From: a virus
Direction: 5' to 3' (one strand)
Virus record (IMG/VR): IMGVR_UViG_3300008110_000139
Location: 1 to 39,913 of that record
DNA: 39,913 bases
Below, in pieces: positions 12,013 to 38,642 of the stretch. The translations under genes were made by a program, and so were the position numbers. How positions within the stretch are numbered: the stretch's first letter is position 1; each line of letters starts with the position of its first letter. The notes below the pieces were generated by a model. It did no database searches. It worked only from the letters and a program-made list of their open reading frames with translations, and was not told where the DNA came from.

Positions 12013-13398
12013 ATGGCTAGATATAATCCAGACTTAATGATGCTAGATGATGGAGCAACAGGTGCTCCACGTGTCGCTGGTCCACGTACCCCTTCAGCTA
12101 CGGCAGAAGAGCTTGCAGTAATACTAGAAGAAGAAAACAAGAAATACGATCCAGCAACAGGTATGCCTTTAGACCTTTTGGAAAGTGGCATTCCAGAACT
12201 TATACAGTCTTTTGCTAAACCTGGATTTACGCCTGGACCTTATCCAAAAGAATTTGAACGATTTTTTGGAGCAGCAGATCCTAATATGATTGGCTACAGA
12301 ATTGTTACAAATTCTGATGGAAGTCAACAATTAGAAGTTCAAACAGGACCAGGTTCAACTCAAACATTTGGTGCTCCAATCAAGGTTGGCGCAAATGGAA
12401 CTGTAGTGCCATTTGAAAAAACCGTAAGCACAACTACTAAAAACGTAAACACACCTGCTTCATCATTTACAGCATCTGATGGAAGAACCTTTACAACATT
12501 AGCAGATCAACTTACATACCAAGCTACACTAGATAAAGCTAAAGGTGAGCGTCAATCTGCTTATGACTTGCTTTACTCAGAGTTCAGTAGGTACGGCCTA
12601 GGTTCATTAGTTGAACCATTAAAAGGTTTAATTCAGCAAGGTGTATCTCCATCTGAATTTACTATTCAGTTACGTAATACACCTCAATACCAACGTCGTT
12701 TTGCAGCAAACGCAAAGCGTGTGCAGAATGGTTTGAAGGCGTTGAGCGAAGCAGAGTACATTGGCCTAGAAGACCAGTACCAAAACATTATGCGTAACTA
12801 TGGATTGCCTGAGCAATACTATGCTCGTGGCGACCTAGGCGTACAGCAAGGTTTTGAACAGTTCATTGGTAACGACGTGTCACCAGTTGAGCTAGAAGAC
12901 CGTATCCAAACAGCTGAGCGTCGTGTTCGTTATGCTAACCCAGAGGTTGGTATTGCTCTTAGAACATTCTACCCAGACATTACTAATGGCGATGTTCTTG
13001 CATATGCTCTTGATCCTAAGACTGCGCTTGAGTCACTCAAGCGTCGCATTACTGCAGCAGAGGTTGGATCAACAGCAGTTCAAATGGGTCTTGCAACTAA
13101 CGTAACAGATGCAGAATATCTTGCTCGTTACGGAGTAACAAAGGCACAAGCACAGCAGGGTTACCAGACAATCTCTAGTTTCTTGCCACGTGCACAACAG
13201 CTTTCAGACATCTACGCCACACAAGGCGTAAGTCCTTATACACAAGCAACTGCAGAAAAGGAAGTCTTCGGAGTTCCTGGAGCAGCAGATGCTGCAGCAC
13301 AACGAAAGAAGATAGTTGGACTTGAGACAGCTGCATTCAGCGGTTCATCAGGTGCAGCTGGCGGTGCGCTAGCACGTGAACGTGCCGGCGGCTTCTAA
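12013..13398 (+). CDS. Putative internal virion protein, 461 aa
   Basis: ATG with AGGGGTAAAAG upstream. The C-terminal two thirds have a repeated helical pattern typical of a phage structural family I recognise only by style: YGLGSLVEPLKGLI, then TPQYQRRFAAN, LSEAEYIGLEDQYQNIMRNY and DVSPVELEDRI. It ends in an Ala/Gly-rich tail. It closes the internal-protein block and is followed by a structured non-coding stretch before scaffold. No enzymatic motif seen. Confidence 0.55.
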   Translation: MARYNPDLMMLDDGATGAPRVAGPRTPSATAEELAVILEEENKKYDPATGMPLDLLESGIPELIQSFAKPGFTPGPYPKEFERFFGAADPNMIGYRIVTNSDGSQQLEVQTGPGSTQTFGAPIKVGANGTVVPFEKTVSTTTKNVNTPASSFTASDGRTFTTLADQLTYQATLDKAKGERQSAYDLLYSEFSRYGLGSLVEPLKGLIQQGVSPSEFTIQLRNTPQYQRRFAANAKRVQNGLKALSEAEYIGLEDQYQNIMRNYGLPEQYYARGDLGVQQGFEQFIGNDVSPVELEDRIQTAERRVRYANPEVGIALRTFYPDITNGDVLAYALDPKTALESLKRRITAAEVGSTAVQMGLATNVTDAEYLARYGVTKAQAQQGYQTISSFLPRAQQLSDIYATQGVSPYTQATAEKEVFGVPGAADAAAQRKKIVGLETAAFSGSSGAAGGALARERAGGF

Positions 13399-13411
13399 AC
13401 AATAAAGCCTG

Positions 13412-13453
13412 CCACTAGAACGACTGGCCTAGTGGAGCGATAGCAAGACCAGT
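13412..13453 (+). ncRNA. H-type RNA pseudoknot upstream of the scaffold gene
   Basis: Stem 1 pairs CCACTAG (13412-13418) with CTAGTGG (13429-13435). Within its loop ACTGG (13423-13427) pairs with CCAGT (13449-13453). This gives stems of 7 and 5 bp, loop 1 of 4 bases, one junction base and loop 3 of 13 bases, geometrically reasonable for an H-type pseudoknot. A further small hairpin (CCGT 13467-13470 with ACGG 13479-13482) follows. All of it lies in the 128-base gap 13399-13526, in front of scaffold and capsid genes. Pairing is seen; in vivo folding and function are inferred. Confidence 0.6.
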
Positions 13454-13526
13454 AGTGGGAGCCATACCGTTTCCCCAGACGGATATGAGGCCTACGCAAA
13501 TCAAACCAATGATAGGGAGAAGGACT

Positions 13527-13994
13527 ATGTCCAATTACGACTACGAGGATGATGACGATTTCGATATGGATTCGTCAAGCAATGACCTTGTAAAACAACT
13601 ACGCAAAGCAGCTAAGCAGAAGGACAAAGAACTGGCCGAACTTCGTGCACAGTTTGAAGGACTCAGCAAGGCTCAACGTGAAAGATCAATCAAGGATGCC
13701 CTCGAACGTCGCGGGGTAAATCAGAAGATCGCTTCATTTATCCCACAGGACATTGACCCAACTGAGGAGTCTGTGTCTAAGTGGCTTGAGGAATACGCCG
13801 ATGTATTCGGAGTAGACCTTGGCCAAAACCAGAAGACGAATGTAGACCCAGCAGATATTGCTGCATACAAGAAGATGACAGGAACAGCAGATGCTGCGAT
13901 GTCACCTGAACGTGGCGCAGACGTGATGTCCCGCCTAATGAATGCAAGCAGCAAAGAAGAGCTGGACGACATCATTCGCCAATCTGGACTTTAA
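13527..13994 (+). CDS. Capsid scaffolding protein
   Basis: Directs procapsid assembly and is then lost or cleaved. I chose ATG 13527, which follows GGGAGAAGGAC, rather than the earlier in-frame GTG. At 155 residues it is acidic at the N-terminus (DYEDDDDFDMD), has a charged coiled coil around residues 20-55 (LRKAAKQKDKELAELRAQFE) and a short C-terminal helical segment. Composition, size and position immediately before the major capsid gene are typical of scaffolds. Confidence 0.8.
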   Translation: MSNYDYEDDDDFDMDSSSNDLVKQLRKAAKQKDKELAELRAQFEGLSKAQRERSIKDALERRGVNQKIASFIPQDIDPTEESVSKWLEEYADVFGVDLGQNQKTNVDPADIAAYKKMTGTADAAMSPERGADVMSRLMNASSKEELDDIIRQSGL

Positions 13995-14023: not shown

Positions 14024-14953
14024 ATGGCAATTCCAGCAGGTAGTTTAACTGGTACCTCCGATATCAGCAATCTCGTAAAGACAGCGTACGATCAATATGT
14101 TCGTATGGCTCTCCGTAGCATCCCAGTGATGCGTGCGATTGCTGACGTCAAGCCAGTACAGCAGGCTATGCCTGGTTCATCAGTTGTGTTCTCTATCTAC
14201 TCAGATCTAGCTCAGGCTACATCTACATTGACAGAAACATCAGATGTATCAAGCATTGCTCTAGGTAACCCAAATCAGGTTACAGTAACTCTGAACGAAT
14301 ACGGTTCAGCAGTAACAACAACAAAGAAGTTAAACCTAACTTCATTCAACGATGTAGATTCAGCACTTGCTGACATCATCGCTTACAACTCAGCAGACTC
14401 TATTGATGCTGTAGTTGCGTCAGTCCTAACAGGTGGCTCAAACGTTATCTACGCAGGAACTGCAACAACAACAAACACAATCACATCATCTATGACAATG
14501 GCTGTTGCTGATATCCGTGAGGCTGTAACACAGCTTCGCACAAACAAGGCTGTGCCACGTATCAATGATTTGTACGCAGCATACCTACACCCACGTCAGG
14601 CAGCTGACCTACGTGCAGAGTCAGGTACTGGTGGATTCCAGGCATTGACACAGTACGTAGACCGCACACCATTCGTCGCTGGCGCAGTAGGCGTCATCGA
14701 AGGTGCATTCGTAGTAGAGACACCTCGTGTGCCTTACGCTGCGAACTCAGGATCAGTTAACGTCTACAAGGCAGTTATCGCTGGTCGTGAAGCACTTGCA
14801 GAAGCACAGGGTCAGGACATCTCAACCGTTATCGGTCCAGAGATTGACGCACTCCGTCGTTTCCGCACAATCGGTTGGTACTATATGGGCGGCTTTGCTC
14901 GCCTACGTGAAGCAGCTCTATATCGTATTGAGTCAGCTTCATCTATTAACTAA
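14024..14953 (+). CDS. Major capsid protein
   Basis: Main shell protein. ATG with AAAGG upstream, 309 residues. The N-terminus (TSDISNLVKTAYDQYVRMAL), the beta-rich middle (NPNQVTVTLNEYGSAVTTTK) and the segment LYAAYLHPRQAADLR resemble HK97-fold capsid proteins of the N4-gp56-like group. Codons are regular and the gene sits between a scaffold and a strong hairpin. It lacks a large N-terminal delta domain, consistent with the separate scaffold gene. Confidence 0.88.
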   Translation: MAIPAGSLTGTSDISNLVKTAYDQYVRMALRSIPVMRAIADVKPVQQAMPGSSVVFSIYSDLAQATSTLTETSDVSSIALGNPNQVTVTLNEYGSAVTTTKKLNLTSFNDVDSALADIIAYNSADSIDAVVASVLTGGSNVIYAGTATTTNTITSSMTMAVADIREAVTQLRTNKAVPRINDLYAAYLHPRQAADLRAESGTGGFQALTQYVDRTPFVAGAVGVIEGAFVVETPRVPYAANSGSVNVYKAVIAGREALAEAQGQDISTVIGPEIDALRRFRTIGWYYMGGFARLREAALYRIESASSIN

Positions 14954-28292: not shown

Positions 28293-28298
28293 GTGACT

Positions 28299-28856
28299 AT
28301 GACAACTATCGCAGGTGTGCAAGGTATTGACTATGCAGTACTCGTCGCAGACTCACAGATCACAGAAGATAATCTCGTGACGCTAGCTGTCAGCACACCC
28401 AAGATCGTAGAGGTAGGTAAGTTCCTCGTCGGTATCTCAGGTGACACACGACCAGGTGACATCCTTTCGTACAACTGGAAGCCACCTCTATATCGTGGCG
28501 AAGATCCTGTTCAGTTTATGGGAAAGAAAGTAATCCCAAGTATGAACACAGCTTTCAACGACAACAACTACGACTACAACAAGGTGGACAAAGATGGCGG
28601 TTTTGATTATCTCATTGCTTTTAACGGTAATATCTTTAGGGTTGCTTGTGATCTCTCTTTTTTCCAAAGTGATGTCGGAATTTACGGCATTGGTAGTGGT
28701 GGTCAGTTTGCTCTTGGCTACCTTGCTTCAATCGTTAAACCTGATATTGAGCTAGCCTACGCAAAGCGACACGCCCGTCGTGCCGTTGATATTGCTTCGG
28801 TACTTGATGCGAACACAGGTAAGCCTCTACAATTAGTAGTACAAGAAAGACTCTAG
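28299..28856 (+). CDS. Phage Ntn-hydrolase (proteasome beta/HslV-like) protein
   Basis: First gene of the plus-strand early/middle cassette. I chose ATG 28299 over the GTG at 28293 because of the leaderless promoter and because it puts Thr at position 2. The sequence TTIAGVQG, VLVADSQIT, KFLVGISGD and GIYGIGSGGQFALGYL follows the proteasome-type N-terminal nucleophile fold, with Thr2 as nucleophile after Met removal. Such proteins occur in actinophages. It may be a self-assembling peptidase or an altered subunit acting on host proteases; the substrate is unknown. 185 residues, close to HslV size. Confidence 0.75.
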   Translation: MTTIAGVQGIDYAVLVADSQITEDNLVTLAVSTPKIVEVGKFLVGISGDTRPGDILSYNWKPPLYRGEDPVQFMGKKVIPSMNTAFNDNNYDYNKVDKDGGFDYLIAFNGNIFRVACDLSFFQSDVGIYGIGSGGQFALGYLASIVKPDIELAYAKRHARRAVDIASVLDANTGKPLQLVVQERL

Positions 28857-33551: not shown

Positions 33552-33944
33552 ATGGCTACAGATGGTACAGATTTTGCAGCATATGGGCTTCCAGATCCTA
33601 GAGATCAATATGGAAACCGAGACACTCTTGATTCGACCTATACAGACAAGATAGATGCTGCCTTTATCGCAGATGTCTGGCGCATTATGGATCAGGCTGG
33701 CAATCTACTGGTGCGTAAGCACCACGACTACGGTCCAAAGAACATTGCTCACTCACCAGGTGGACCACTTAATGGTCTGCGTGTACGTATGTGGGACAAG
33801 ATAGCTCGCATCAATAACTTACTAGACTCAGGTGTTAAGCCAAGCAACGAGTCGTTGCGTGATTCATTCTTAGACTTACTGAACTACTCAGCTATTGCAA
33901 TGATGGTACTCGATGGCGTATGGCCAGAGGTTGAGAGTGACTGA
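33552..33944 (+). CDS. DUF1599/Nmad1-like nucleotide-modification-associated protein
   Basis: 130 residues. The core KHHDYGPKNIAHSP, LRVRMWDKIARINNLLDSG, NESLRDSFLDLLNYSAIAMM matches the all-helical domain I know as DUF1599 (nucleotide modification associated domain 1), related in fold to MazG-like NTP pyrophosphohydrolases. It may act on nucleotide pools. There is no other base-modification gene nearby, so the name is only a family label. ATG 33552. Confidence 0.75.
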   Translation: MATDGTDFAAYGLPDPRDQYGNRDTLDSTYTDKIDAAFIADVWRIMDQAGNLLVRKHHDYGPKNIAHSPGGPLNGLRVRMWDKIARINNLLDSGVKPSNESLRDSFLDLLNYSAIAMMVLDGVWPEVESD

Positions 33945-34569
33945 ATTACATCCAGTTGTTTATGACTTAGTGCCAGCGGTGGCTACAACCATTCACCGCA
34001 GGTATAAGAACTATGTCGAAAAGGATGACATCAAGCAAGAGTGTATGGCTTGGGCTGTGACTCGTACTGCTTACATCAATGAGCAGATGTTAGAACCTGA
34101 CGAGGAAAAGCGTAAGCACAATGAAAGTCGTATTGCATTTCAGATGAGGCGTGTAGCAGAGCGCTACTCTCGTAAAGAAAAGGCGTTAAAGTCTGGGTAT
34201 CAGACAACTGATGAAGCCTACTATGAAAGCGCAGGGCTAGGTCAGCTACTTCCGTTTGTTATTGCATCCGTTGTAGATGGCACAGTACTAGAGCAGATAC
34301 AACAGATGATCCAGGATGGGCAACCCAAAGGTAAGTCATCACCATCTGAAGGTGGCAACCTACTTGCTACCCTTATTGATATCAAGCGTTGCTTCTTGAA
34401 GCTAGATGTACAAGACCAACTACTGCTACGCCTACGTCACTTTGATAACTACACACTGCAACAGATAGCAGGGCAGTTAGAGTGTGCAGTATCCACCGCA
34501 GATCGCAGATGTCAACAGGCATTACGCAGACTGATTGAACTACTAGGAGGTTCTAGCCCGTGGAGTTAG
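33937..34569 (+). CDS. Sigma factor-like DNA-binding protein
   Basis: GTG 33937 preceded by GAGG is preferred to the upstream start at 33913; it overlaps the preceding gene by 8 bases. The N-terminal part YKNYVEKDDIKQECMAWAVT resembles sigma region 2. The C-terminal part (LRLRHFDNYTLQQIAGQLEC, then AVSTADRRCQQALRRL) is a sigma region 4 HTH. It probably directs host RNA polymerase to phage promoters, in partnership with WhiB. 210 residues, as for short ECF-like sigma factors. Confidence 0.78.
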   Translation: MTELHPVVYDLVPAVATTIHRRYKNYVEKDDIKQECMAWAVTRTAYINEQMLEPDEEKRKHNESRIAFQMRRVAERYSRKEKALKSGYQTTDEAYYESAGLGQLLPFVIASVVDGTVLEQIQQMIQDGQPKGKSSPSEGGNLLATLIDIKRCFLKLDVQDQLLLRLRHFDNYTLQQIAGQLECAVSTADRRCQQALRRLIELLGGSSPWS

Positions 34570-38039: not shown

Positions 38040-38642
38040 TTAGTCTACGTATCGCATAGGCATAAGCAAAGCTCTCCACTCTACTTTAGTAATCGGTAGG
38101 TGGATCATCATAGGCTTACCCTTGCCCATAAACTCTACGCGTACCGGGTTACCCTTACCCGCTATCTTTGCATAGTCAGCGAATAGGGCCGGGTTAAACG
38201 CTACCTCCCCTAGTGGCTCTCTCTCACTCTTACTCAATAGATCCTCAAAACTAGCCGGGTAGTTCGCGTCTAATAGTTGCACGGTGATGGAGCTCCCGCT
38301 CACGCTCACGGTTAATAGGTCACCGATACGGTTAAGGGTTACACGGGATAGCTTGTTACTCTTACATAGCTCTATAACCCGCTTAACATCGCTTAGTGAT
38401 AGTAGGCTCTTAGATAGTTGCCCGTGCTCTACCTCTATCTTTCCCTCTATCAAGCGGTATCTATCGGTAGCCCGGGCCACGAGATAGCCCGCTCCCTCTC
38501 CCTCTAGCTGCACACTATTGAGCGCGTATAGGCTCTTATCCTTGCTTGAGTGAGTAGATGCTCCCTCTAATAGCTCCACTAGAGCGCTATTCCCAAGCTC
38601 TACGGTATCGGTTACTACTTTAGTCTCTTCCATAGTACTCAT
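38040..38642 (-). CDS. dnaN-like: DnaN-like DNA polymerase III sliding clamp
   Basis: Ring-forming processivity factor, 200 residues, shorter than the about 370 of bacterial three-domain clamps, so two domains at most. The pattern ATDRYRLIEGKI resembles the clamp motif ATDGHRL, and the C-terminal part NPVRVEFMGKGKPMMIHL with WRALLMPMRYV resembles the DnaN C-terminus ending in LMPVRL. A two-domain clamp would need three subunits for a closed ring, as in PCNA, or might act on the host clamp loader differently. No phage polymerase is in the window, so it would serve the host enzyme. Confidence 0.75.
   Translation of the reverse strand: MSTMEETKVVTDTVELGNSALVELLEGASTHSSKDKSLYALNSVQLEGEGAGYLVARATDRYRLIEGKIEVEHGQLSKSLLSLSDVKRVIELCKSNKLSRVTLNRIGDLLTVSVSGSSITVQLLDANYPASFEDLLSKSEREPLGEVAFNPALFADYAKIAGKGNPVRVEFMGKGKPMMIHLPITKVEWRALLMPMRYVD

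Follow-up and report, generated by a model that had tools for sequence, protein, structure and literature searches.

The gap ahead of the scaffold and major capsid genes of a freshwater phage encodes a predicted leader RNA of about 92 nt which, on comparative evidence, is conserved in hundreds of related actinobacterial phages. Its 5' domain folds as an H-type pseudoknot, and its 3' domain as a hairpin carried by a short basal helix, with a C-rich hairpin loop that would pair with the Shine-Dalgarno site of the scaffold gene. From the covariation, we consider it rather likely that this RNA acts in cis on the scaffold-capsid message and controls translation of the scaffold gene.

The window, i.e., the whole stretch of DNA analysed, comprises positions 1 to 39,913 of the IMG/VR record IMGVR_UViG_3300008110_000139 (39,913 nt). 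In this stretch, 128 nt (13399-13526) separate the stop codon of an upstream ORF from the ATG of a scaffold gene, which also weakly matches the head scaffolding protein phrog_648, and the major capsid gene follows (Table 1); the setting described in a sequence-only reading, a 128-base gap ahead of scaffold-capsid genes, was thereby borne out. Neither tRNA nor tmRNA genes were detected in the window. Elsewhere in it, an ORF with a proteasome-subunit domain (PF00227, 6.6e-11), odd for a phage gene, was found at 28293-28856 (plus strand), and an ORF with a DNA polymerase III sliding clamp central domain (PF02767) at 38040-38642 (minus strand).

Table 1. Leader RNA elements and neighbouring genes, in window positions.
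Feature	Position	Strand	Basis or remark
Upstream gene, phrog_8424, unknown function	12013..13398	+	Family match
Entire conserved leader RNA (predicted)	13404..13496	+	Covariance model R1, window score 104.6 bits; location shared by relatives
S1 extension, 5' strand	13409..13410	+	Pairs with 13436-13437 across bulged 13411; RNAalifold
S1, 5' strand, CCACTAG	13412..13418	+	Pairing and covariation
Loop L1, AACG	13419..13422	+	Pseudoknot geometry
S2, 5' strand, ACTGG	13423..13427	+	Pairing and covariation
S1, 3' strand, CTAGTGG	13429..13435	+	Pairing and covariation
Loop L3, A-rich	13436..13448	+	Geometry, alignment
S2, 3' strand, CCAGT	13449..13453	+	Pairing and covariation
P3a, 5' strand, GTGGG	13455..13459	+	Pairs with 13491-13495; 100% of cells paired in window clade
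Conserved unpaired AGC, P3a/P3b internal loop	13460..13462	+	Faces AGG at 13488-13490; alignment
P3b hairpin, CATACCG...CGGATATG	13463..13487	+	Covariation
P3b loop CCCC, putative Shine-Dalgarno partner	13473..13476	+	Complementarity, co-variation
P3a, 3' strand, CCTAC	13491..13495	+	Covariation
Shine-Dalgarno GGGAG of scaffold gene, putative loop partner	13515..13519	+	Sequence, co-variation
Scaffold gene, phrog_7813 family	13527..13994	+	Family match
Major capsid gene	14024..14953	+	Family match

The pseudoknot and the covariation of its stems

In the single sequence, S1 (7 bp, CCACTAG with CTAGTGG) and S2 (5 bp, ACTGG with CCAGT) follow the standard H-type order S1-S2-S1'-S2', with loops L1, L2, and L3 of 4, 1, and 13 nt, and this agrees in coordinates, order, and loop lengths with the H-type pseudoknot of 7-bp and 5-bp stems that the sequence-only reading had placed at 13412-13453. 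When the gap was dinucleotide-shuffled 1500 times, an H-type pseudoknot with at least 7+5 Watson-Crick pairs arose in 5 of the shuffled sequences; 10 start positions of such a structure exist on the two strands of the whole window. Pseudoknot-free folding of the gap region was barely better than that of shuffles (z -1.6). From the window sequence by itself, the pseudoknot is thus suggestive, being moderately unlikely by chance.

Searches of viral contigs yielded 557 relatives by capsid and 188 by scaffold. The core pattern CCACTAG-N4-ACTGG-N-CTAGTGG was present exactly in at least 119 stretches, and the exact matches listed precede the scaffold gene on every contig that extends that far. Relatives without the exact pattern presented the same fold in other letters, with CCAACGG/CCGTTGG and CTAACGG/CCGTTAG as variants of S1, and ACTGG/CCAGT and ACCGG/CCGGT as variants of S2.

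The window clade, represented by 51 sequences, had 97.8% of its cells paired, with 153 double changes compared to 39 in shuffles (0/500 as high); in 53 diverse sequences, including more distant phages, 96.1% of cells were paired, S1 at 96%, with 260 double-change cells compared to 72 in shuffles (0/500), all these sequences sharing ancestry, so that the counts are not numbers of independent events. At a single position, as many as four standard Watson-Crick pair types occur, which requires repeated change. Moreover, shifting the partner by 1-3 columns in the 53-sequence alignment lowered pairing to 25-46%. S2 had been left out of the covariance model that built this alignment; in these 53 sequences it was paired in 95.1% of cells, with 41 double-change cells (0/500 shuffles as good), and its four inner pairs did not fail in any sequence.

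Homologous gaps in relatives were inspected for loss of the stems, the result that would have spoken against the sequence-only reading; in fact, both helices are kept in the H-type order, with extensive compensatory change, and chance pairing was rejected on the covariation of both. Because the stems have been kept through so much change, the gap itself is kept for an RNA structure; that reading had taken its retention to suggest a function. In this context, we regard the comparative evidence as decisive that the predicted pseudoknot is real and conserved.

The second domain and the scaffold Shine-Dalgarno site

The pseudoknot had been correctly recognised from the single sequence, yet it represents only the 5' half of the conserved RNA: the S1 extension, whose pairs 13409-13437 and 13410-13436 are invariant in the window clade, and a whole domain at 13455-13495 had been missed. 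The latter consists of the helices P3a and P3b, and the internal loop between them (AGC and AGG) is near-invariant in the alignments of relatives. Covariance model R1, built from the window clade, recovered the RNA in distant phages, where its location is unchanged, and the broader model R2 matched 95 of 100 capsid-relative loci. Four of the remaining loci (L311, L314, L318, and L345) lie on contigs that start within or beyond the RNA, and the fifth (L321) has just 502 bases ahead of the capsid gene and therefore probably lacks the place too; the RNA was present in 95/95 tested capsid relatives whose contig reaches the place.

Two further ideas on the fold were rejected. A switch pairing CCTGC, located before S1, with the 3' strand of P3a is contradicted by CCTGC being nearly constant while P3a varies; and an intrinsic terminator is suggested by a TTTT after the hairpin in Streptomyces phages, but the freshwater phages have no T-run.

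The CCCC of the P3b loop complements GGG in the Shine-Dalgarno site of the scaffold gene, and the two vary together in relatives: GGGAG and GGGUGG sites occur with CCCC in the loop, and UAGGAG sites with CCUA(G). A CCUA loop was found with 13/13 UAGGAG sites and with 4/230 GGG sites, and each of these four loops, which hold CCCUA, also contains at least four C. Loci L461-L540, chance matches to a loose DNA pattern for UAGGAG cases, were left out of these counts, and a stricter pattern gave no further case. In the clade of the Planktophila phages, a lone locus (L365) has the loop CCCU together with the site AAUAGGAG amid CCCC/GGG relatives. Among soil phages, none of 2000 re-pairings of loops with sites was as complementary as the real combination (kinship being ignored), and 13/13 versus 1/76 was obtained for a larger soil set that has members in common with the first.

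On a tree of 119 capsids, the Shine-Dalgarno site changes at least six times. Loop and site changed in the same direction in 4/4 pairs on supported branches and never in opposite directions (6 pairs on all branches), and the tree-corrected sign test on these 4 supported (6 total) independent changes gave p 0.125, such a number being too few to reach 0.05. The helix between loop and site would be only 3-5 bp long; the Shine-Dalgarno site of the capsid gene in the window is without GGG. An additional pair, between the base after the C-run of the loop and the base before the G-run of the site, was tried and gave no clear co-variation. The leader contains an element complementary to the Shine-Dalgarno site and shows compensatory change between the two, as expected of a Shine-Dalgarno-sequestering leader, with the tree sign test underpowered, and the loop/Shine-Dalgarno pairing probably forms a second pseudoknot, by which the ribosome-binding site would be hidden.

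Proposed control of scaffold synthesis

Of the functions that the sequence-only reading had offered for the gap, i.e., translational control, an RNase-processing boundary, or a binding site for a capsid or scaffold protein, the first is favoured by the co-variation of loop and Shine-Dalgarno site; a processing or stability boundary, or a protein-binding site, is possible. Under translational control, the leader would alternate between a closed form, in which the loop holds the Shine-Dalgarno site, and an open form, and a phage-specific effector acting on the surface of the pseudoknot and internal loop would set the balance between them.

The likeliest effector would be the phrog_7813 scaffold protein, in an autogenous control that fits scaffold synthesis to assembly. 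The scaffold belonged to phrog_7813 in all RNA-bearing phages in which it was tested, and the RNA always lies upstream of the phrog_7813 gene. Furthermore, the RNA was absent from Streptomyces phage BRock, Bacillus phage Page, Pelagibacter phage HTVC026P, Pseudoalteromonas phage Y3, and Bacteroides phage BS162P1, which are distant capsid relatives with other scaffolds. Shared descent may account for the co-occurrence of the RNA with one scaffold family, and the scaffold protein as effector is our tentative guess from gene identity and co-occurrence. Similarly, it is conceivable, with the odds somewhat against it, that these RNAs constitute an undescribed two-pseudoknot leader family of scaffold-capsid operons in actinophages of fresh water and soil, by means of which unassembled scaffold represses its own translation. 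If so, the leader would be the RNA component of a loop that senses assembly.

The scaffolding protein of phage P22 is under autogenous control, whereby scaffold synthesis is matched to assembly post-transcriptionally, and we know of no RNA target for this regulation. The gene kind and the logic are the same as proposed here, P22 being an unrelated phage. Should the phrog_7813 scaffold bind its leader, the old question of how scaffold synthesis is matched to head assembly would gain a defined RNA target; indeed, structured leader RNAs are little known in phage structural operons.

A parallel in anatomy is provided by the gene 32 operator of phages T4 and RB69, likewise an H-type pseudoknot in a phage leader, a few tens of nucleotides before the Shine-Dalgarno site, where T4 gp32 binds the pseudoknot and represses its own translation (PMC535899). 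In the leader studied here, the pseudoknot also lies upstream of the Shine-Dalgarno site at what would be, judged from sequence, the 5' end of the leader. However, the gene 32 operator works with a single-strand-binding protein and UUAAA repeats, and has no sequence relation to this leader, which shows no UUAAA/UAAA repeats in window 13454-13526 and is distinguished by a second covarying hairpin, a putative Shine-Dalgarno pairing, and a scaffold gene.

Genomic position, alternative explanations, and hosts

In freshwater phages, the RNA starts shortly after a stop codon, whereas in Beephvirinae of Streptomyces and their relatives it follows the last tRNA of an array, with S1 within a few nucleotides of the tRNA 3' end; roughly 9-15 nt ahead of S1, a promoter-like -10 was seen by eye in further Streptomyces-type phages and prophages. 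With each of these upstream elements, the scaffold-capsid message could have its 5' end near S1. The close spacing of S1 behind stop codon, tRNA, or promoter-like site would also suit an mRNA 5'-end stabiliser or processing boundary, in which the pseudoknot caps the scaffold-capsid mRNA and blocks 5'-to-3' decay, the 5' end being made by cleavage, by tRNA 3' processing, or by the start of transcription, so that capsid mRNA would exceed the upstream mRNA; actinobacteria possess RNase J. We hold this explanation to be unlikely, though the strongest of the alternatives, as it leaves the second domain and the joint change of loop and Shine-Dalgarno site unexplained.

Three Streptomyces phages (L281, L283, and L284) have 14-22 tRNA genes exactly between the upstream gene and the RNA. 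Five loci (L396, L447, L448, L407, and L439) share an inverted-repeat-like site around GATAGCRCTTTTCWGCTAGC beside the promoter-like -10, just upstream of the RNA, which may be the operator of a late capsid promoter in these Streptomyces-type phages and prophages.

The SAM-II and preQ1 classes are translational riboswitches whose pseudoknots hold the Shine-Dalgarno site, and the leader has in common with them a compact conserved pseudoknot with conserved loops upstream of a pairing Shine-Dalgarno site. The pseudoknot could accordingly be the aptamer of a metabolite or ion riboswitch for a small molecule that varies during infection, with the loop/Shine-Dalgarno pairing as expression platform. 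Nevertheless, no Rfam riboswitch matched even at E up to 10, and the RNA has so far been seen in phages and prophages only: model searches found it exclusively in prophages among 199 Streptomyces genomes, and not in 296 genomes of the phylum (a search run without a positive control). Metabolite riboswitches usually serve host genes as well, and we judge this explanation to be quite improbable. In Rfam 15, the motif database compared, no family reached the gathering threshold, the best chance match scoring 10.2 bits versus 100, and no description of this RNA was found among open-licence papers.

Encoding beside the head genes and conservation across the phage group would also fit a trans-acting phage RNA, e.g., a packaging or assembly part like the phi29 pRNA, that is incidentally transcribed as a leader; since co-variation with the adjacent Shine-Dalgarno site points to cis action, and Rfam shows no pRNA match, we give it very little credence. 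An HDV-like self-cleaving ribozyme trimming phage tRNA 3' ends, suggested by the theta ribozymes as pseudoknotted RNAs directly after phage tRNAs (PMC10879173) and by the same arrangement in many Streptomyces-type phages, can be practically dismissed: in alignments of freshwater phages, the interval between the S2 5' strand and the S1 3' strand measures about 0-3 nt, because of which helix P3 and loop L3 of the nested double pseudoknot cannot form, a tRNA is missing from this place in most carriers, the RNA precedes one gene, and no Rfam match was obtained.

Regarding hosts, the carriers include OX376640 and OX376641 (the sequence of OX376640 was read), identified with two phages grown on 'Ca. 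Planktophila' LanE-43, the Planktophila phages E7 and F5 (PMC10202952), which makes a freshwater actinobacterium the probable host of the window. A sigma-70-like factor and a glycosyltransferase are encoded in the window, as they are in E7 and F5. Since the RNA occurs in abundant freshwater phages, as well as in cultured 'Ca. Planktophila' and Streptomyces phages, the proposed control would be testable at once. The window protein with Sigma-70 region 4 is encoded at 33913-34569 (plus strand), and late promoters might be read by a sigma-70 factor of this kind, which E7 and F5 likewise encode. In E7, the gene upstream of the RNA (L282, 740-2332) contains a long stretch of simple DNA repeat, which is translated as a Gly-Thr repeat within the protein.
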